A stretch of DNA of 64,000 nt from Aristaeella lactis (GTDB lineage Bacteria > Bacillota > Clostridia > Christensenellales > Aristaeellaceae): the NCBI RefSeq assembly GCF_018118585.1, contig NZ_CP069421.1, forward strand, positions 310,001 to 374,000. The letters run 5' to 3'. The translations under genes and the position numbers were made by a program. The notes beneath the pieces were generated by a model. That model was not told the DNA's origin and made no database searches. It saw nothing but the letters and a program-made list of their open reading frames with translations. Below, piece by piece: positions 18,499-58,068 of the stretch (the stretch's first letter is position 1; every line of letters starts with the position of its first letter).

Positions 18499-19185
18499 AT
18501 GGATAAGCAGAACAATTATGAAGCCTACCTGAAGTCCACCCATCGCCTGGGCCGGATCGTTTCCGTCATTACGCTGGTGCTGCTGGTCGGCGCGCCGTTT
18601 ATGATCGGCACGCTGCTTGGCGCGGGCCCGGACCTTGGCGCGGTGGCACGGGGCTTCCTGTCTGTGGGCCTGGTGTGGACGGTTTCCAGCGTGGTGGAGT
18701 TCCTGGTCTATACGCCTATGCTGGGTGCCGGCGGCAGCTACCTGGCCTTTATTACCGGCAACCTGATCAACATGAAGATCCCCTGCGCCATGAACGCCAA
18801 GGAACTGGTGGATGCCAAGTCCGGCACGGCAGAGAACGAGGTCATCGCGACCCTGTCCATTGCCACTTCCTCCCTGGTGACGATCGTGGTGCTGGCCCTG
18901 GGCGTGGTGCTGCTGATCCCGCTGCAGCCTGTGCTGCAGAGCCCGGTGCTGGCTCCGGCTTTTGCCAACGTGGTGCCCGCATTGTTCGGCGCTATGGCCT
19001 ATAAGTATTACCGGAAGGATCCGCTGCTGGCGTTGATTCCGCTGACTGTGATGATCATCCTGTTCACGCTGGTGCCGTCCCTGACGTCTTCCACCAGCTT
19101 CATGATCATCCCCGCCGGCGCGCTGGCCATTGCCCTGGCATGGATCAAGTACCGGAAAGCCTCGAAGGGAGCGTCAGCTGAATGA
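18499..19185 (+). CDS. Membrane protein partner of DUF5058 protein
   Basis: A 228-residue protein with about six helices. It begins MDKQNNYEAYLKSTHRLGRI and has the central soluble stretch NMKIPCAMNAKELVDAKSGTAENEV, a conserved-looking loop between helices three and four. I do not recognise a named domain. A GGAGGGGAAAG site precedes the ATG. It is flanked by a DUF5058 gene upstream and an M20 peptidase whose ATG overlaps its stop (ATGA). The most economical reading is the second subunit of a membrane complex; that is inference. Confidence 0.8.
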   Translation: MDKQNNYEAYLKSTHRLGRIVSVITLVLLVGAPFMIGTLLGAGPDLGAVARGFLSVGLVWTVSSVVEFLVYTPMLGAGGSYLAFITGNLINMKIPCAMNAKELVDAKSGTAENEVIATLSIATSSLVTIVVLALGVVLLIPLQPVLQSPVLAPAFANVVPALFGAMAYKYYRKDPLLALIPLTVMIILFTLVPSLTSSTSFMIIPAGALAIALAWIKYRKASKGASAE

Positions 19186-20633
19186 TCGCGCTGTGGATCG
19201 TATTGGGACTGATCGGCCTGCTGCTTCTCCTGCTGCTGGCCGCGATGATCCGTACCCTGCTGATTCCGAATAAGCAGTCCACCTACCGGCCGGATCCGGA
19301 TCCGGAACAGGCGGAGGCTTATGCCGAAAAACTGTCCGCCATGGTCCGGTATGAGACGGTCTCCGTTCCGGGAGAGGACCTGCGGGAGAAGTTCCTGGGC
19401 TTCCATAAGGTGCTGGAGGAACTGTTCCCGTTGGTACACCGGGAACTGGAAAAGACGGAGATTGACGGAAACCTGCTGTATTACTGGAAGGGGCAGGACA
19501 GCAGCCGTCCGCTGCTGCTGATGAGCCACCAGGACGTTGTGCCCGCGGAGGGAACCTGGGAGCATGAACCCTTCTCAGGAGATATCGCGGACGGGAAGGT
19601 CTGGGGCCGGGGCGCCTCGGATACCAAGTGCTCGGTGATGGCCTTCTTCCAGGCGGTTGAGGAACTGCTGGCGGAAGGGGTTGTTCCGCCGCAGGATGTA
19701 TACCTGTCCTCCTCCTGCACGGAGGAATGGGGCGGAGACGGCTGCCCGAAGCTGGTGGCGGAGCTGGAACGGCGCGGTGTGAAGCCATACCTGGTCTGCG
19801 ATGAGGGCGGCGGGATCATCACTGATCCCATCGGCGGCATCCACGGCAACTTTGCCATGGTGGGTGTTTTTGAGAAGGGAAAGGCGGATGTGCGCTTCAC
19901 CGCGAAGTCCGGCGGGGGACATGCCAGCGCACCGCCTGCCCATTCCCCGGTGGCGCGGCTTGCGGCTTTTGTGAATGAGATCGAGACCCGAAGTGTCTTC
20001 AAACGGAAGATGCCGAAGGAAGTCGCGGCGATGTTTGAAACCCTGGCGCCTTACGCCGGATTTCCGCTGAAGCTGGTGCTGTCCAACCTGTGGCTGTTCC
20101 GGCCTGTGCTGCTGAAGGTGCTGCCGGCGATCAGCGCCCAGGCGGGAGCCATGATCCGCACCACCATCGCCTTTACGATGATGAGCGGATCAGATGCCTG
20201 CAACGTGCTGCCCCAGGAGGCAAGTATCTGCGCCAACATGCGGTTTATTCCGCACCAGGGCATGGAGGAAAGCCTCGGGATCGTGCGGAAGCTGGCGGAA
20301 AAGCACGGACTGGAGACGGAAGTGCTTGCGGCCAATGACTATACAGAACCGGTGAATATCCATGGGGACGCTTTCATGACCGTGCAGCGGGTGATCGCGG
20401 AGACTTTCCCGGGATGCGCGGGCAGCCCCTATGTGATGACCGGCGCCACGGACTCACGGTTCTACCATCGGATCTGTGACAACGTGGTGTGCTTTGCCCC
20501 GGTGATCTACGGACCGGAGCAGATGAAAGGCATGCACGGGGTGAATGAGAATATAGAGTATAGCTGCCTGCCAGGAGCAGTGCGGTTTTACCAAAATCTC
20601 ATACGAGAATTTGGTAAAACAATGAAATATTGA
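19182..20633 (+). CDS. Membrane-anchored M20 family peptidase (CPS1/PM20D1-like)
   Basis: A 483-residue zinc hydrolase with an N-terminal transmembrane helix (residues 4-28). Metal ligands and the general base are visible: His116 and Asp118 in MSHQDVVPA, Asp147 in GRGASDTKCS, Glu181-Glu182 in SSCTEEWGGDG, Asp in CDEGGG, and a late His in KGMHGVNEN. The order and the N-terminal anchor match carboxypeptidase S/PM20D1-type enzymes, which cut dipeptides or N-acyl amino acids. It is translationally coupled to the preceding membrane protein. The last 17 codons overlap a 16 bp hairpin that opens a repeat array, so the C-terminus may have been rewritten. Confidence 0.9.
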   Translation: MIALWIVLGLIGLLLLLLLAAMIRTLLIPNKQSTYRPDPDPEQAEAYAEKLSAMVRYETVSVPGEDLREKFLGFHKVLEELFPLVHRELEKTEIDGNLLYYWKGQDSSRPLLLMSHQDVVPAEGTWEHEPFSGDIADGKVWGRGASDTKCSVMAFFQAVEELLAEGVVPPQDVYLSSSCTEEWGGDGCPKLVAELERRGVKPYLVCDEGGGIITDPIGGIHGNFAMVGVFEKGKADVRFTAKSGGGHASAPPAHSPVARLAAFVNEIETRSVFKRKMPKEVAAMFETLAPYAGFPLKLVLSNLWLFRPVLLKVLPAISAQAGAMIRTTIAFTMMSGSDACNVLPQEASICANMRFIPHQGMEESLGIVRKLAEKHGLETEVLAANDYTEPVNIHGDAFMTVQRVIAETFPGCAGSPYVMTGATDSRFYHRICDNVVCFAPVIYGPEQMKGMHGVNENIEYSCLPGAVRFYQNLIREFGKTMKY

Positions 20634-20651
20634 ACGGCAGGGCCGTTCAAT
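20585..20651 (+). repeat. Hairpin array start over the M20 stop codon
   Basis: Hairpin 1: arms 20585-20600 and 20605-20620 (15 of 16 pairs, loop ATAC), inside the last codons of the M20 gene. Spacer ATGAAAT at 20622-20628. Hairpin 2: ATTGAACGGC (20629-20638), loop AGG, GCCGTTCAAT (20642-20651), containing the TGA stop at 20631-20633. The next unit follows after GTGAAAT. Confidence 0.8.
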
Positions 20652-20768
20652 GTGAAATATGCCCTTCGGGTATGTGATCCTTCGACTGCGCTCCCTTCGT
20701 ACCGCTTGCTCAGGATGACACTTTTAGCGGAATCCCAATGTGAAATATTCGCCTTGCGGCGAATGTGA
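20652..20768. repeat. GTGAAAT-spaced hairpins with an inserted GATGACA-family repeat
   Basis: Spacer GTGAAAT at 20652-20658, hairpin ATGCC-CTTCG-GGTAT (20659-20673), then GTGAT. The array is interrupted at about 20677-20722 by a copy of the ...CTTCGACTGCGCTC...GCTCAGGATGACA family. It resumes with GTGAAAT (20740-20746) and hairpin ATTCGCC-TTGC-GGCGAAT (20747-20764) and GTGA. The remaining stretch to 20835 has no gene that I can see. Confidence 0.75.
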
Positions 20769-20835
20769 TAGTAACTCTGTTTGGCTAAATACCAAGGCAA
20801 TTCGTTCGCTCATGGAAAATGGTGATGCGGCTTTC

Positions 20836-20880: not shown

Positions 20881-20990
20881 CCAGCCTGGCGGCTGGAATG
20901 ATATGTCTGACAAGGTCAGACATGATATATTGGTCTATGGCCAATATGATATGTTGCTTCGCAACATAATATGTTCGTCTGCGACGAACG
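20881..20990. repeat. GAT-spaced hairpin array before the SH3 protein gene
   Basis: Five hairpins in a row: CCAGCC-TGGC-GGCTGG (20881-20896); ATGTCTGAC-AAG-GTCAGACAT (20903-20923); ATATTGG-TCTATG-GCCAATAT region (20927-20947); ATGTTGC-TTC-GCAACAT (20951-20967); GTTCGTC-TGC-GACGAAC (20973-20989). The units are separated by GAT or AAT, so each junction reads ATGATAT or ATAATAT. No two stems have the same sequence. Confidence 0.85.
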
Positions 20991-21020
20991 TTGAAGTTAC
21001 AGTATACAATATGGTATGAT
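20991..21020 (+). promoter_or_regulatory. Promoter of the SH3 protein gene
   Basis: TTGAAG (20991-20996) starts right where the hairpin array ends, and TATGAT is at 21015-21020 with an 18 bp spacer, 30 bp before the start. An AAGGAGG site lies at about 21034-21040. Confidence 0.65.
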
Positions 21021-21049
21021 AAGCAGAACAGGCAAGGAGGAATAGAAGA

Positions 21050-21955
21050 ATGAAGCATAACGGATTTTTCAAAAGGCTGACAGCTGTGGCGCTGGCACTG
21101 ATCCTGACCGTTTCCTGCGGTTGCGTGCTGGCTGAAGAAAAAACGTCCTCTTCTCCGGCGGCAGAGTCGCAGACCGTTGCGGAACTGCTGAATGTGCCGG
21201 ATTTCAAATTCTTCGTCCGGGACAAGGGAATCGGCAAGGGTGAATTCCCTGTATATACCGCCCCGTCCGAGGATTCCATCCGCCTGTCTGACGGCAAGCT
21301 GATGGTCAATGTGGGCTATGAGCTGGCTGTGGCCGGTTTTGATTCCGGCTGGCTTATGGTCCGCTTTGAAGTAAAGGATAAGAAGGCCCGGGTCGGTTAT
21401 ATCCCGCAGAAGTATGTCCGCGGCCTGACAACCGGTGTGGGACAGCTGAAGTTTGTCTCCATTCCCGTGGCGCTGGCAGAGGAAACGGAGATCACGGACA
21501 ACCCGCGTTCCAACTCCACGCCTTTCGGTACCCTGACCAAAGGAACGCAGGTAACGATCCTGGGCAAATATACCTACACCGGCAACTGGTGGTACGTGGA
21601 AACGGAGCTGGCCGGGCAGCGGACCCGCGGCTTCATTAACCGCACCAACGCGGACCTGCTGATCGACGGCAAAGTGTATACCGGCAATGAAGCACTGGGT
21701 TTCCCGGTCGCGGCACCTGACGGCAACACGCAGATCGGTACGATCACGGTGAACGGTGACGGAGACTACGCGATGATCGTGCGTAAGCATGCCAACGCGG
21801 ATTCCGCCATGGTGGCCCGTGCCTTCGGCGGAGACGTCTTCCCGTGCTACGGCAGCAAGACGGGTCCCCGGGACAGGGTCTGGTATTATATCTGGGTGGA
21901 CGGCGTATGGGGCTGGTTCTCTTCCGGCAATTCCACGCTGACCGAAAACGAGTGA
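21050..21955 (+). CDS. Exported bacterial SH3-domain protein
   Basis: A 301-residue protein with a signal peptide ([23 protein letters not shown], cleavage near residue 28; the SCGC could also be a weak lipobox). The mature part has three SH3-like units: about residues 60-128 ([18 protein letters not shown]), 140-205 ([20 protein letters not shown], then [19 protein letters not shown]) and 232-295 ([16 protein letters not shown], then [15 protein letters not shown]). Such domains bind peptidoglycan or cell-wall peptides outside the cell. There is no enzymatic domain. It is flanked by hairpin arrays on the left and fumC 34 bp to the right. Confidence 0.85.
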
Positions 21956-21989
21956 TTTTCATAACATTGTAAAAATACAGGAGCAAGGC

Positions 21990-23363
21990 ATGACTTACAG
22001 AACAGAACATGATTCCATGGGTGAGGTCCGTGTACCCGCGGACCGTTACTGGGGTGCCCAGACGGAACGGAGCCGGAACAATTTCCCCATTGGCGCGGGA
22101 CACGAAAATATGCCGGGGGAGATTATCCGGGCTTTTGCCGTGCTGAAAATGGCGGCAGCGCTGGCTAACAGGGAACTGAAACCGGAAAAGATGACCGCGA
22201 AAAAGTGCGGCGCGATCTGCCAGGCGGCGGAGGAAATCCTTGCCGGAAAGCTGGATGGACATTTCCCGCTTGTGGTCTGGCAGACGGGATCCGGCACCCA
22301 GAGCAATATGAACATGAACGAGGTCATCGCAAACCGGGGAAACGAAATTGCCGGGGAGAAGCTGCTGCATCCCAACGATGACGTGAATATGAGCCAGTCC
22401 TCCAATGACACTTTCCCCACGGCCATGCACATTGCCGCGGCGGAAGCTATGGAACGGACGATTGAGGCGGTTGTCCGGCTGAAGGACGAGCTGATCCGGC
22501 TGGAGAAGGAAAACGCGAATGTGCTCAAGTGCGGCCGCACCCACCTGCAGGACGCGACACCGATCCTGTTCTGCCAGGAGATCTCCGGCTGGCGTTCCAG
22601 CCTGGAAAAGGATGAGGAACTGCTGCGGCTGGCGGAGAAACCGCTGCTGTCCCTGGCCCTGGGCGGAACCGCCGTCGGGACCGGACTGAACGCTCCGGAA
22701 GGCTTTGATTCCCTTTCCGCGGCGAAGATTGCGGAGAAAACCGGCCTGCCTTTTGTAACAGCGGAGAACAAGTTCCATGCCCTGACGTCCAAAGATGAGA
22801 TGGTTTTTGCCCACGGCGCGCTGAAGGCGCTGGCGGCGGACCTGATGAAGATCGCCAACGATATCCGGTGGCTGGCCAGCGGCCCGCGGCTGGGCCTGGG
22901 CGAGATCACGATCCCGGAGAATGAGCCGGGTTCCTCCATCATGCCGGGCAAGGTCAACCCCACCCAGTGTGAGCAGGTGACCATGGTGGCGGCCCAGGTA
23001 ATGGGTAATGACGTAGCTGTCGGTATTGCCGCCAGCCAGGGCAACTTTGAGCTGAATGTGTTCATGCCGGTGTGCGCCTACAACTTCCTGCAGAGCGCAC
23101 GGCTGCTGGCGGAGAGCATGGATTCCTTCCGGGAACGCTGCGTGAGCGGCATCCAGGCCAACCGGGCGAAGATGCAGGAGAATGTGGAGCGCTCCCTGAT
23201 GCTGGTGACCGCGCTGTCGCCGATCATCGGCTATGAGAACGCAGCGAAGACCGCCCAGAAGGCACACCGGGACGGCAGCAGCCTGAAGGAGGCGTGCGTG
23301 GCGCTGGGATTCCTGACGGAAGAAGAATTTGACGCGAACTACCACCCTGAAGCAATGGTATAA
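21990..23363 (+). CDS. fumC: Class II fumarate hydratase
   Basis: A 457-residue enzyme that interconverts fumarate and malate in the cytoplasm; normal length for class II fumarase. Signature regions are [14 protein letters not shown] (about residues 98-111), [15 protein letters not shown] (about 132-146) and the mobile-loop box [17 protein letters not shown] (about 316-332). It is related to aspartase, but the N-terminal [20 protein letters not shown] and the loop match fumarase. Its stop codon lies in the loop of a perfect 12 bp hairpin that starts a repeat array. The gene is probably independent of alaX, which begins 135 bp later. Confidence 0.95.
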
Positions 23364-23467
23364 ACCATTGCTTCAATGATATGTTATCTTCGACAACATG
23401 ATATATTTGCCGTTGGCAAATATGATATGTCGCTTTGCGACATGATATATTCGGCTTCGCCGAATGT
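23348..23467. repeat. GAT-spaced hairpin array over the fumC stop codon
   Basis: Five hairpins: TGAAGCAATGGT-ATAA-ACCATTGCTTCA (23348-23375, loop holds the TAA stop); ATGTTATC-TTC-GACAACAT (23381-23399, one mismatch); ATATTTGCC-GTT-GGCAAATAT (23403-23423); ATGTCGC-TTT-GCGACAT (23427-23443); ATTCGGC-TTC-GCCGAAT (23449-23465). The spacers are GAT each time, so the junction always reads ATGATAT. The alaX start follows 32 bp later. Confidence 0.9.
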
Positions 23468-23498: not shown

Positions 23499-24695
23499 AT
23501 GACTGAGAGACTGTATTATGATGACGCATATCTGTGGCAGTTTGATGCCACGGTCACGTCTGTGCGGAACGGAACGCGGCCGGGAGAGTGGGAGATCACC
23601 CTGGATCGGAGCGCGTTTTACCCGACCTCGGGCGGACAGCCCTTTGACACCGGTACGCTGACCTTTGGCAAAGTGAAGGCGAAGGTCACGGACGTGGAAG
23701 TGGCTGCAGACGGAGACGTTATTCATACAGTTGACAAAGAGATCCCTGTGGGAACGGCGGTGCGCGGCGAGATTGACGGCGCGCGGCGGACGGACCACAT
23801 GGAGCAGCACGGCGGGGAACACATGCTGGCGGGCGCCATCTGGGAAAAACTGGGCGGCACGACCATCGGCCTGCACCTGGGACAGACAGAATCCACCATT
23901 GACGTATCCATGCCGGAAGGCCGGACCCACCTGACAGAGGAAGAGATCCTCCTGCTGGAGAACACGGTGAACGAGCGGATCCGCCTGGATGCGCCGATCC
24001 GCTGCTGGTTCCCCGAAGAAGAGGAACTGAAGAAGCTTCCCCTGCGCAAGGCGCCTACGGTGACGGAGCATGTACGTATTGTGGCCATGGGCGACTTTGA
24101 GATGGTTGCCTGCGGCGGAACGCATCCGTCCTCCACGGGCCGGATCGGGCTGATCAAGATTATTTCCGCCATTCCCGCCAAGGGAAAGGTGCGGGTTTCC
24201 TTTGTCTGCGGCGGACGGGCAGTGGGCCTTTTTCAGACCTATATGCGGTATGCGGACAAGGCCGGCGCGGCGCTGAGCTGTCCGGTGGAGAAGCTGTCTT
24301 CCGCGGCAAGCGACCTGAAGTACAGGCTGTCGGAGGCGGAGAAGAAAGCGAACCGGCTGGAAAGCCGGGAACTGCTGGACAGGATGGCGCAGGCGGAAAG
24401 CGGGGAGGATGTTCCCGGGATCACGCTGTGCGTGCTGACGATGCCGGAAACGGACAGCCGGGCAGTGTCGGCAGCGGTTTCGGAATATATCGCGGCAAAG
24501 GGCAGGGCCCTGCTGTTGTGCGCGGGGGAAAGGCTGACCTTTGCCCGGTCCGCGGATGTAAAGATTGACATGAATGACCTGATCAAGCGGGTGGGCCGGG
24601 GCGGCGGCAGGCCGGATATGGCCAGCGGCGCCGGAATTCCGGAATGCGTATCCGTGGCCCGGAAGATCCTGATGACGGAGGGAATCAGCAAATGA
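23499..24695 (+). CDS. Alanyl-tRNA editing protein (AlaX type) with DHHA1 domain
   Basis: A 398-residue stand-alone editing factor that would remove serine or glycine from mischarged tRNA-Ala. The N-terminal barrel has SAFYPTSGGQPFDTG, the zinc site is DHMEQHGGEHML plus ACGGTH (His, His, Cys, His), and the C-terminal part carries a DHHA1 domain ending in RVGRGGGRPDMASGAG. No aminoacylation domain is present. This is the long AlaX form, close in layout to the C-terminal half of AlaRS. Its stop overlaps the start of a small gene (ATGA). It follows a hairpin array. Confidence 0.9.
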   Translation: MTERLYYDDAYLWQFDATVTSVRNGTRPGEWEITLDRSAFYPTSGGQPFDTGTLTFGKVKAKVTDVEVAADGDVIHTVDKEIPVGTAVRGEIDGARRTDHMEQHGGEHMLAGAIWEKLGGTTIGLHLGQTESTIDVSMPEGRTHLTEEEILLLENTVNERIRLDAPIRCWFPEEEELKKLPLRKAPTVTEHVRIVAMGDFEMVACGGTHPSSTGRIGLIKIISAIPAKGKVRVSFVCGGRAVGLFQTYMRYADKAGAALSCPVEKLSSAASDLKYRLSEAEKKANRLESRELLDRMAQAESGEDVPGITLCVLTMPETDSRAVSAAVSEYIAAKGRALLLCAGERLTFARSADVKIDMNDLIKRVGRGGGRPDMASGAGIPECVSVARKILMTEGISK

Positions 24696-32466: not shown

Positions 32467-32560
32467 GGGAACGATAGGGACGGTCCTTTTCGTTCCCTTT
32501 TTTGTCAGACAAGCAAATAAGAGATGGACGGGGAACGAAAAGGACCGTCCCTATCGTTCC
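32467..32560. repeat. Head-to-head pair of REP-like palindromes
   Basis: One copy at 32467-32497 (GGGAACGATAGGGACGGTCC and so on) and its reverse complement at 32531-32560, with 33 bp between. The pair forms a giant inverted repeat of about 30 bp arms. An identical arrangement is at 43209-43302. Confidence 0.88.
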
Positions 32561-33240
32561 GGAAGTATGAAGTAAGAGCTTTTTCTGGCTGCAGCCGGGT
32601 CAGATCTCTCCGCAACCTCAATCGGCGCACTGCTCGTTTGGAGCACTTCGCATTGCTTGTTTCGGTAAGGAAACGCACACGCACCGCGGACGGGATCCCC
32701 GTCCCGCGCACCGCGCGCGTCAGGACTCCACCTCATTTTCGCCTTTGGCGAATGACCCACCGGGTCACCACTCGGATCGTTCCCCACGCAGCCGTAAACG
32801 GCTTTGGTCGAGATGACAATTTTGGGTTTCCCTTTGGTCTGACTAATTGCGGTAAGGCCCCGGAGGAGATCCTTCGACGCGCTCATTTCATTCGCTTGCT
32901 CAGGATGACACGGGGCGAAGGAGATTGGTTCCCATGGCTGTTGTCATAATCTGAATCCGGGGAGATTCTTCGACGCGCTCATTTCATTCGCTTGCTCAGG
33001 ATGACACAGGGCGGAGGAGTCGGGTTCCCTTAATGCTGCTCCGTCTAAATCATGAAACGATTTGACTACCGATGCCAATTATAGTAAGGGATTCCTCCAC
33101 TCGCTGACGCTTGGTCGGAATGACACCGGGGATGCTTTTCCGTCCGGGCGATGATACGGGCTGGAGAAAGAATCATTCTGAATTCTGAATTCTGAATTCT
33201 GCATTGTCCATAGCTGCTCCTTATCGTGCTGAAACGGGCG
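32561..33240. repeat. Intergenic repeat island before rplI
   Basis: About 680 bp without a credible gene. It holds a long composite at 32598-32817 (CAGATCTCTCC ... GTCGAGATGACA, with small inverted repeats inside), two almost identical copies at 32866-32912 and 32959-33007 (GATCCTTCGACGCGCTCATT ... GCTCAGGATGACAC), a shorter copy at 33090-33127, and a tract of ATTCTGAATTCTGAATTCTG at 33174-33204. Open frames across it are low quality and unsupported by ribosome sites. Confidence 0.8.
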
Positions 33241-43129: not shown

Positions 43130-43205
43130 CAATTCAGAATTCAGAATTCAGAATGCAGAATGGTGGAGGAAATCGCACCCTGGTGGGTGCGATTCCTTTG
43201 AATTG
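43130..43205. repeat. Composite element copy 2: direct-repeat tract plus GGTGGA-hairpin-TTTGA
   Basis: AATTCAGAATTCAGAATTCA tract at 43130-43160, GGTGGA at 43162-43167, stem GGAAATCGCACCC (43168-43180, one bulged A) / GGGTGCGATTCC (43185-43196), then TTTGAAT. Confidence 0.85.
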
Positions 43206-43208
43206 ATG

Positions 43209-43302
43209 GGGAACGATAGGGACGGTCCTTTTCGTTCCCTGTACCTTCCTTATTGCTATTCTGACTGTAATGGGAACGAAAAGGACCGTCCCTATCGTTC
43301 CC
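43209..43302. repeat. Head-to-head pair of REP-like palindromes
   Basis: Copy at 43209-43239 and its reverse complement at 43272-43302, each 31 bp (GGGAACGATAGGGACGGTCC core), with 32 bp between. Same arrangement as 32467-32560. Confidence 0.9.
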
Positions 43303-43341
43303 TTTTGTGTGCCTGCGGACATAGTTGTTTCGCTCTGAAAT

Positions 43342-56425: not shown

Positions 56426-57270
56426 AGAAAGTGATTCTTTGGATCCTGGCGTTTGCGCTGACAGGTACGCTGCTGCTCTCCTGTGTCTGCCTGATCGGCC
56501 GCCAGGTAATCGCTCCCGGCCTGCAGGAGGACGGAGCGCAGGTTTCGGACGAGGTGATCCGGGAGGAAAAGGAACTGGCCCGGCAGCGTATTACGGAACT
56601 GGCGGACCTCTACGGGTTTACCGCGGAGCCGGTGATCGAGTTTGTGGATGAGGAGACCCTGCGGGGGCTGCATAAAGAAGCATCCCAATGGTACAGCAGG
56701 ATCCTGACCAGCGGAAAAGCCGGTGAGGACGTTGAGTGGAACCCGGAAGGCCTGGAGGAGATCTTCGCGAAGGATCCGGCCATTACGGCGCTGGAACGGG
56801 ATGAAGCGGAATCCATGGTGATCAACTGCACGGCGGAAGTGCGCAGGAGCATGCTCCGTATGGTTCTGCCCATGCGGCAGCAGGTGATCGGCATCGGCCT
56901 GCAGATGGCGGCCAAAAAGGTGGACATCGCGAACCTGCTGGAGTTCTTTGCCGGAACGCCCTGGGCCCTGCTCGCGGTCAGCGCCTTTATTGCCGGCCTG
57001 ATCGCCCTGATAGCCGGAAGGGTCCGCGCTTCCCTGAAGTATATCGGTTCCGCACTGGGCGCCGCGGCTATCGTGCTGGCGGCACTGGTAATCCTGTACC
57101 TGACCGCGGGAATTCAGTCCATGATCCGGGAGGCGTCCGCAGGACTGACCATCCAGTATCAGGACGTGGCTTCCGGCTCGTTTATGCTGACCGGTGTGCT
57201 GGCGGCTGTGCTGCTGGCGGGCTGCGCTGTGTGCCTTGTGCTGGGCCGGAAGTATGAGGCAAAGGCATGA
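56422..57270 (+). CDS. Membrane protein with an extracellular helical domain
   Basis: A 282-residue protein: one N-terminal helix (residues 4-27), a charged soluble helical region (about 40-165) and three C-terminal helices (about 180-200, 210-235 and 248-272). The soluble part has no catalytic motif (QRITELADLYGFTAEPVIEF). I do not recognise the family. It is linked by ATGA overlaps both to the tiny gene before and to the phosphoesterase after, so the three probably act together. Confidence 0.75.
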   Translation: MKKVILWILAFALTGTLLLSCVCLIGRQVIAPGLQEDGAQVSDEVIREEKELARQRITELADLYGFTAEPVIEFVDEETLRGLHKEASQWYSRILTSGKAGEDVEWNPEGLEEIFAKDPAITALERDEAESMVINCTAEVRRSMLRMVLPMRQQVIGIGLQMAAKKVDIANLLEFFAGTPWALLAVSAFIAGLIALIAGRVRASLKYIGSALGAAAIVLAALVILYLTAGIQSMIREASAGLTIQYQDVASGSFMLTGVLAAVLLAGCAVCLVLGRKYEAKA

Positions 57271-57983
57271 AAAGACAACTGACGGAATACACCTTCCGCT
57301 CGGAAAAGATAGAACGCCCGCTACGGCTGGCAGTGGCGGCGGATATTCACAGCTCGCCCTTTGAAGACGTGCTGGAGGAGTTTGCCCGCTGCGACGCGGT
57401 GCTGATTCCCGGTGACCTGGTGGACCGCCACCGCCGGAACAACGAGAACGCGTATCGCTTCCTGGAAGCCGCTCCGGAGTGTGCCCCGGTGTTTTATTCC
57501 ATCGGCAATCACGAAAGGAAATTCCGGGACAGGGCAGCGTACCTGGAAAAGGTGAAGGCCAGCAAGGTGACCCTGCTGGACAATGAGAGCATCTCCTTTA
57601 TGGGGATCCGCATCGGCGGCCTTTCCAGCGTAAAGGAAAAGCAGCCGGACCTGGCTTTCCTGGACCGGTTTGAGAAGGAGGAGGGCTACAGACTCCTGCT
57701 GTGCCACCACCCGGAGGTATACCGGGATTTCGTGTCCGGACGGGATATTGACCTGACCCTTGCCGGTCATGCCCACGGCGGGCAGATCCAGATCGCGGGC
57801 CACGGACTGTATGCCCCCGGCCAGGGGCTTTTTCCGAAACTGACCCATGGCCTGTATGACGGCGGGAAACTGCTGGTTTCACGGGGAATGACCAACGGGG
57901 CGAAACCGCGGATTCCGCGGATCGGAAATCCCTGCGAGCTGATCATACTGAATCTTGTTAACACTTCCGGGTCTGGTAAGTGA
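57267..57983 (+). CDS. Metallophosphoesterase (calcineurin-like)
   Basis: A 238-residue phosphoesterase. Metal ligands are in VAADIHSS (Asp, His), VLIPGDLVDRH (GD), SIGNHERK (GNH), LLCHHPEVY and LAGHAHGGQIQI (GHxHGGQ). The absence of a signal peptide suggests a cytoplasmic or membrane-associated role; YkuE/LpxH-like relatives act on lipids or nucleotides. The stop TGA falls inside the first GTGAAAT spacer of a hairpin array. It is the last gene of the rnz-uvrB run. Confidence 0.88.
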   Translation: MKRQLTEYTFRSEKIERPLRLAVAADIHSSPFEDVLEEFARCDAVLIPGDLVDRHRRNNENAYRFLEAAPECAPVFYSIGNHERKFRDRAAYLEKVKASKVTLLDNESISFMGIRIGGLSSVKEKQPDLAFLDRFEKEEGYRLLLCHHPEVYRDFVSGRDIDLTLAGHAHGGQIQIAGHGLYAPGQGLFPKLTHGLYDGGKLLVSRGMTNGAKPRIPRIGNPCELIILNLVNTSGSGK

Positions 57984-58068
57984 AATATGCCCTCCGGGCA
58001 TGTGAAATACTGGCTTCGCCAGTGTGAAATATCGCTTCGCGATGTGAAATGTTGGCTTCGCCAATGTG
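57980..58068. repeat. GTGAAAT-spaced hairpin array over the phosphoesterase stop codon
   Basis: Four hairpins with constant spacer GTGAAAT (57980, 58002, 58024, 58044): ATGCC-CTCCG-GGCAT (57987-58001), ACTGG-CTTCG-CCAGT (58009-58023), ATCGC-TTC-GCGAT (58031-58043), ATTGG-type GTTGG-CTTCG-CCAAT (58051-58065). Loops are mostly CUUCG, a very stable RNA loop. The phosphoesterase stop is at 57981-57983. The next small gene starts 27 bp later. Confidence 0.92.

Follow-up and report, generated by a model that had tools for sequence, protein, structure and literature searches.

The Gut-1 motif was reportedly first shown in a 2009 Nature paper. The available part of PMC2864571 presents Gut-1 as a noncoding RNA unaffiliated with mRNAs and found only in the human gut, with three hairpins joined by GUGAAAU linkers. 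REP/BIME sequences with RAYT are short intergenic palindromes that are dispersed and in some cases clustered (PMC3733652, in excerpt; see also PMC8266576); for REP families the excerpt gives family-specific stems, an end tag such as GTAG and often observed GT pairing in the stem (PMC3733652). Perfect inverted copies of adjacent DNA, with a strand bias, are also the mark of quasipalindrome or template-switch mutation (PMC7202029, PMC8794818, both in excerpt). Template switching is stated there to perfect quasipalindromes in E. coli (PMC7202029), and it has been proposed for the origin of RNA hairpins (PMC8794818, same excerpt), where the origin and upkeep of long perfect hairpins is named as an open question in RNA evolution.

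In the window, i.e. the whole stretch of 64,000 nt of Aristaeella lactis DNA that was analysed, a first-pass annotation had drawn attention to two clusters of small hairpins, and re-reading of the sequence confirmed that both are real and lie where they had been placed. The arrays and genes of the window described here are on the + strand. Array 1 (20881..20991) begins with a leading hairpin, CCAGCC/GGCTGG (20881-20896), followed by four units (20899-20991) separated by the linker ATGATAT, which once reads ATAATAT; a gene for an SH3_3-domain protein (21050..21955) lies downstream. Array 2 (23377..23467) has four units with linker ATGATAT and is led by the gene-end palindrome TGAAGCAATGGT/ataa/ACCATTGCTTCA (23348..23375), which carries a stop codon in its loop. 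The left arm of this first hairpin is made of the last codons of a fumarase-type lyase gene (21990..23363), and the array is followed by a gene whose protein has alanyl-tRNA-synthetase-type domains (23499..24695; tRNA-synt_2c, tRNA_SAD and DHHA1). As had been noted, the spacer is nearly constant and the stems are variable yet complementary, which simple tandem duplication is insufficient to explain. The statement that every unit starts and ends with AT holds generally, with the exception of the first hairpin of each cluster and of the last unit of each, which ends in GT. The stems are mostly perfect, as claimed, apart from one A·C mismatch (GTTATC/GACAAC) and one T·G pair (TTGGTC/GGCCAA).

Two related arrays in the window (20585-20770 and 57981-58067) had been omitted from that finding. 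The first of them is preceded by the gene-end palindrome GTTTTACCAAAATCTC/atac/GAGAATTTGGTAAAAC (20585..20620), both arms of which lie within an M20 peptidase ORF (19182-20633); in three array-free loci of relatives (L150-L152) no comparable palindrome was seen by eye at the end of this ORF. The array itself (20623..20770, linker GTGAAAT) is split: two units were parsed (20623-20675) and a third was recognised by eye (about 20741-20766). The interruption at 20676-20719, GATCCTTCGACTGCGC...GGATGAC, is another dispersed repeat. The other array (57981..58067) has four units with linker GTGAAAT, and the stop codon of the phosphoesterase ORF upstream of it (57267-57983) is the TGA of its first linker. 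The parser found four arrays of at least two units on the + strand of the window and none on the minus strand, in the reversed sequence or in the complement. The folding z scores of arrays 1 and 2 as RNA were -6.94 and -7.25, respectively, and for each of them none of 200 dinucleotide shuffles folded as well. The pattern is therefore above chance, which the annotation had made a point to be checked.

Membership in Gut-1 (Rfam RF01706) was judged by whether the covariance-model score reached the gathering score of 50 bits. The stretch 57978-58055 (75.8 bits) and array 2 (23374-23453, 52.0 bits) were above this cut-off, array 1 (20896-20977, 42.3 bits) was below it. Because the window arrays belong to, or resemble, Gut-1, the repeat class counts as described, though thinly, and the contrary opinion of the annotation had to be abandoned. 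With the Gut-1 of the excerpted description (PMC2864571) the arrays share hairpins on GUGAAAU linkers, and two window arrays pass the curated cut-off. They differ from it in being dispersed by the dozen in a genome, in having usually four hairpins and a place at gene 3' ends, and also in their variant linkers, gene-end palindromes, replichore orientation and distribution over 39 of 121 genera of one order. Gut-1 is a known but barely described family, and the properties reported here are new and testable; in particular, the gene-end palindromes that lead arrays and the orientation that follows the replichore are beyond the known family. Taking the claims of the first-pass annotation together, its interpretation was partly supported.

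The genome from which the window was taken contains 73 Gut-1 matches at E values up to 10, of which 22 are over the cut-off, whereas the same permissive search of 14 control genomes gave weak matches in nine and none over the cut-off. When 45 genomes of the genus were scanned with a pattern of linker types A and B, 32 had no match, five had 1 or 2, two had 5 or 6 and six had 31 to 143. With the pattern reversed, three genomes had a single match each. An order-wide Rfam scan detected Gut-1 at E 1e-4 in 69 of 297 genomes, which belong to the 39 genera mentioned above, and 42 genomes had a match over the cut-off; the counts per genome are lower bounds because 15 candidates were scored in each. 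Among 80 named loci around fumC-like genes, one (L104, from the Eubacterium sp. MAG RUI100) had a parsed array, of two units. Gut-1 extends to other families of the order, for example those of G032, G118, G276 and G285, and in G032 arrays with about eight hairpins, joined by GTGATAT and GTTATAT, were seen by eye at loci L042 and L058. Carriage by phages was considered and rejected; three of the 120 viral loci among the matches listed gave parsed arrays, two of which look real. These two viral contigs (L273 and L282) hold short arrays of Gut-1-like hairpins.

The anatomy of the arrays was determined in stretches of 417 kb, 215 kb and 169 kb from three genomes, G000, G041 and G022, respectively. 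The stretches were picked around array matches, therefore the array counts are no estimate of density. The parser recognised 76, 49 and 49 arrays (174 in total) with 269, 168 and 176 units (613 hairpins) and none in reversed or complemented controls of the same stretches. Four was the modal unit number (50 of 76, 32 of 49 and 38 of 49 arrays). The string between units (n = 439) was GTGAAAT in 291 cases, ATGAAAT in 60, TATGAATTA in 34 and ATGATAT in 29, and was 7 nt long in 388. Linker type was mostly uniform within an array; G000 had 48 arrays of type A, 9 of type B, 8 of type C and 11 mixed. The stems, called unrelated in the annotation, do differ in many cases, but the 269 units of G000 have 150 distinct left arms, the commonest of which was seen 16 times, so the stems were not all newly made, nor do they all repeat a single master copy. 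In one genome the flanks of several arrays were similar to each other.

Gene positions around the arrays were taken from a codon-model gene caller. The upstream gene was on the strand of the array in 58 of 75, 31 of 48 and 34 of 49 cases (G000, G041, G022; 123 of 172, two arrays with no upstream gene in the stretch being left out). In 104 of these 123 same-strand arrays the first linker started between -11 and 60 nt from the stop codon, and in 16, including the window array at 57981, the TGA of the linker was the stop codon itself. Arrays at the 3' ends of genes would form part of the 3' region of the mRNAs, and the position of most arrays beside stop codons in sense does not, as far as sequence can tell, suggest a free RNA. 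This location, together with the folding z scores of arrays 1 and 2, is in keeping with selection at the RNA level, according to which the arrays would be structured 3' UTRs that shield the ends of mRNAs or offer a protein a binding site in the single-stranded linker, with stems drifting by compensatory changes. We regard this explanation as rather improbable, for reasons that emerge from the pairing and the orientation of the arrays.

A strong leading hairpin at the gene end was found in 42 of the 123 same-strand arrays (26, 7 and 9 in G000, G041 and G022), and in none of 870 shuffled controls. It often consists of the 3' end of the gene itself plus an inverted copy: in 24 of the 42 the left arm is wholly coding and the stop codon comes later, within the loop or right arm or beyond the hairpin, in 11 the stop codon is inside the left arm, and in 7 it precedes the hairpin. 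Ten of the 50 upstream hairpins scoring at least 8 had four or more T in the last six bases, thus some leading hairpins are terminator-like. The array units themselves do not look like intrinsic terminators (hairpin followed by a T tract), since the linker comes next instead.

The association between gene-end palindromes and arrays was examined in orthologs of fumC, guaB and a gene that, from the start of its protein, we take to be of the FAD-dependent type. A palindrome was required to straddle the stop codon and to score at least 6.5, orthologs counted as array-free if the parser recognised no array of at least two units there (G004 was classed by eye), and three loci were skipped. On this basis 9 of 13 array-bearing orthologs had such a palindrome (fumC 1 of 3, guaB 5 of 5, FAD-dependent-type gene 3 of 5), as against 1 of 74 array-free orthologs (Fisher 1.3e-8), including 0 of 27 for fumC. 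The palindrome at fumC of G007 begins nearer the stop codon and so fails the straddling rule, and guaB of G007 has neither array nor stop-straddling palindrome. A looser test that dispensed with the stop-codon rule, and that included hairpins away from the stop, gave palindromes in 9 of 11 loci with an array and in 17 of 79 without, G004 being placed in the latter group. The left arm at guaB contains AGAAGCAAT in G000 and G004 and CGTTCAAAT in G041, G022 and G001, and the right arms match the left arm of their own lineage, one or two mismatches aside. In a gene of G000, G041 and G022, presumably PspC-like, the right arm likewise tracks the left arm. The first-pass annotation had proposed that either the fold is selected or some copying mechanism generates new palindromes, and gene-end palindromes whose right arm tracks the left arm of each lineage fit this alternative.

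Pairing was evaluated from the fourth pair inward (n = 3,895 pairs), where 3,839 Watson-Crick pairs, 16 G·T, 23 A·C and 17 other combinations were counted. If selection acted on RNA of the array strand, G·U should be commoner than A·C, and inside the stems G·U is not in excess; the missing excess is no artefact of the parser, whose penalty was lower for G·T than for A·C. The second outermost pair, which is part of the linker, is different. On the array strand 431 of 613 units have T·G there, a combination that pairs only as sense RNA, and it is the best sign of an RNA role. It is also the main reason why the array strand folds better than the other strand as RNA in 440 of 613 units; shuffling of the loops altered this strand comparison little, with RNA or DNA energies.

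The loops are asymmetric between the strands. On the array strand 276 of 402 triloops were TNC and 6 were GNA, and 77 of 172 tetraloops were TNNC and 3 were GNNA. Wherever C-G closes the loop, the opposite strand therefore has c(GNA)g or c(GNNA)g, and these are, in the excerpt of PMC4686876, the turns of very stable mini-hairpin DNA. With the DNA energy parameters used, the GNA strand had no advantage. No TNC excess was found in the gene-end and other upstream hairpins, whose 15 triloops included 2 TNC and 6 GNA. The RNA tetraloop C(UNCG)G, which would suit RNA selection, was tried as an explanation and rejected: the next pair beside TNC was GC in 94, CG in 91, AT in 50 and TA in 41 cases, i.e. 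the required register is unfavoured.

The orientation of the arrays was compared with the replichores as delimited by the GC skew of the stretches sampled, which for G041 and G022 were coarse samples, a few arrays there lying close to a skew switch. Of the 174 arrays, some of which are orthologous between G041 and G022 and hence not independent, 157 were co-oriented with the positive-skew strand and 17 ran counter to it. The genes of the same stretches gave 182 to 104, 91 to 66 and 69 to 56. Arrays between convergent or divergent genes are informative, because gene direction cannot decide there, and of these 69 were co-oriented and 2 were not (44 to 1 and 25 to 1, respectively; 30 to 1 for both kinds of site in G000 alone). 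Arrays between divergent genes lie in the 3' UTR of neither neighbour and still follow replication, which argues against selection on mRNA ends, as do the 23 arrays that are antisense between co-directional genes (13 to 10; sense arrays 71 to 4). Genome-wide, 67 of 73 Rfam matches in G000 follow the replichore. That orientation follows replication and not genes hints that the hairpins are produced or repaired by copying at the fork; it is a property beyond the reach of a single-window reading.

The GC skew of G000 changes sign, noisily, near 0.86-0.97 and 2.6 Mb, and the sole match to the DnaA C-terminal domain is far from the skew switches in each genome (G000:C1 1306370, G041:C1 1423326, G022:C1 3136510). 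As dnaA is not at a skew switch, the leading strand was taken from its usual richness in G and from gene direction. KOPS and Chi are polar signals that organise chromosomes, and the linker might be thought to carry a signal of this kind: the orientation is polar, and 41 of 62 merged Rfam matches of G000 lie within 0.6 Mb of the skew switch near 0.8 Mb, where 21.8 were expected. None of the 62, however, falls in the interval 0.62-1.00 Mb around that switch itself. Outside arrays GTGAAAT was on the leading strand in 69, 68 and 74% of its occurrences, and 6 to 12% of heptamers were at least as skewed. Isolated heptamers are thus not specially polar, and a KOPS- or Chi-like role of the linker was rejected as very improbable.

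Transposition by way of single strands is targeted to the lagging-strand template in the IS200/IS605 family. If the arrays were non-autonomous elements moved by an enzyme of this preference, with stems drifting afterwards, then their strict replichore orientation, the modal four units, the patchy spread in genus and order and the frequent position right after a gene-end hairpin would be accounted for. No mobilising enzyme was identified for the arrays. In five array-rich genomes 16 RAYT-like Y1_Tnp domains were found, for which the nearest parsed array in the stretch was at least 936 bp away; two had one closer than 2.5 kb, at 936 bp in G001 and 2,415 bp in G022, and no Gut-1-type array was parsed nearer than 900 bp to any of the 16; one of the stretches ended 188 bp past the domain. 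The flanks of 15 of these domains contained, by eye, mostly palindromes with other words, and Y1_Tnp was also present in array-free genomes. RAYT-type Y1 transposases were therefore rejected as mobilisers, other palindromes flanking most such genes. Reverse transcriptases were rejected as well, as RVT_1 was not found at E 1e-10 in the array-rich genomes G000, G041, G001, G007 and G022; among other array-bearing genomes, G004 has three and G003 one. Moreover, stems are only partly shared between arrays, as the left arms of G000 show. A lost or unseen single-strand transposase is possible, but RAYT genes and reverse transcriptases fit poorly, and we consider this origin unlikely, somewhat more so than RNA selection.

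Unlike what is described for REP families in the excerpt cited above, stems vary here within one array, the linker is the constant part and inner G·T pairs are rare. A conserved stem with an end tag such as GTAG was not found, the 269 units of G000 having 150 different left arms, and other palindromes accompany the RAYT-like genes of these genomes. At the RAYT loci (L438-L451, L355) the palindrome words differed between lineages, several being built round a GGGACGG or GGGGACGG core (by eye). Two inverted repeats of the window, GGGAACGATAGGGACGG... at 32467-32561 and 43204-43308, matched animal miRNA families in a permissive Rfam search. They belong in kind with the palindromes found on either side of one RAYT-like gene (L440) in this genome.

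Changes over a short time were followed between G041 and G022, where 31 orthologous array pairs were found and the 19 that were at least 80% alike were compared. Differences amounted to 28 of 1364 sites in arms, 13 of 253 in loops and 13 of 426 in linkers, and to 58 of 1269 in downstream DNA and 464 of 11772 in upstream flanks. The lower rate of change in arms compared with loops (p 0.008) and with downstream DNA is a further point in favour of RNA selection. The 22 changed stem pairs comprised 10 Watson-Crick pairs facing a mismatch, 6 cases involving G·T and 6 double Watson-Crick changes. The latter were found among 682 pairs, where the square of the arm rate predicts about 0.3, and five of the six are in fourth units that look replaced as a block. 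The fourth unit and the DNA downstream of it differ in at least three arrays, and at one orthologous site (G041 3030618, G022 1453610) exactly one unit was lost or gained, a comparison that the annotation had called for. Units are thus lost, gained or replaced. Uncompensated changes in related strains, which the annotation had named as evidence against its reading, were in part encountered, as 16 of the 22 changed pairs were single and uncompensated and the other 6 were double Watson-Crick changes. Between G000 and G041 the sequence difference is about 9% for guaB and 15% for the FAD-type gene; stems at shared sites were, by eye, mostly unrelated, with a few clear compensated relatives.

The orientation with replication, the rarity of G·U and A·C, the copies of coding ends and the block-wise change together speak for copying at the fork, with template switching as the simplest form, and we favour such a replication-coupled DNA process over selection on RNA only. 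The arrays would be Gut-1 DNA elements, i.e. dispersed DNA arrays of usually four palindromes with a short constant linker, mostly right after stop codons. A process tied to the fork would insert them, or maintain them, in one orientation, and short-range template switching, in which the nascent strand briefly copies itself or its sister, would leave a perfect inverted copy, so that stems can vary freely and yet stay Watson-Crick perfect and the coding end can gain an inverted copy. That template switching is the agent, that the arrays fold as single-stranded DNA and what role they have in the cell are inferences. This whole reading, which covers both placement or upkeep at the fork and the making and mending of stems, has in our estimate an equal chance of being right or wrong. 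No template-switch event was caught in the act, and none was dated as a single event. Template-switch mutations are known as sporadic mutations and hotspots, whereas here the process would operate at dozens of arrays per genome with a constant linker.

Several observations speak against template switching. Sixteen of 22 changed pairs are uncompensated and five of six double changes lie in units that look replaced as a block; upstream hairpins have no TNC excess and DNA energies show no advantage of the GNA strand; and 8 of the 49 arrays with an upstream gene on the opposite strand also have a strong leading hairpin. A single, simple strand model fails to account for both features, because the GNA turn is opposite to the strand whose snap-back would make the new right arm of a gene-end palindrome. 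The constant linker and the modal four units are unexplained by template switching alone. In a bolder form of replication-driven copying, only linker and layout would be inherited, and each stem, including that at the coding end of the host gene, would be rewritten at fork passage as an inverted copy of adjacent DNA, by strand-specific snap-back at stable turns; this we put forward tentatively, as rather doubtful.

The replichore orientation suggests that Gut-1, held by Rfam as an sRNA, is first a DNA element. This bears on how covariation is read, because compensated stems usually count as proof of a functional RNA. One bacterial clade offers here dozens of natural replicates per genome, some of them orthologous across species, with a built-in control in their orientation. 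Downstream of the FAD-type gene of G000 and G004 (L405, L406), unrelated terminator-like hairpins are enclosed in array hairpins (TTGAAC...GTTCAA) and look as if units had closed around them.
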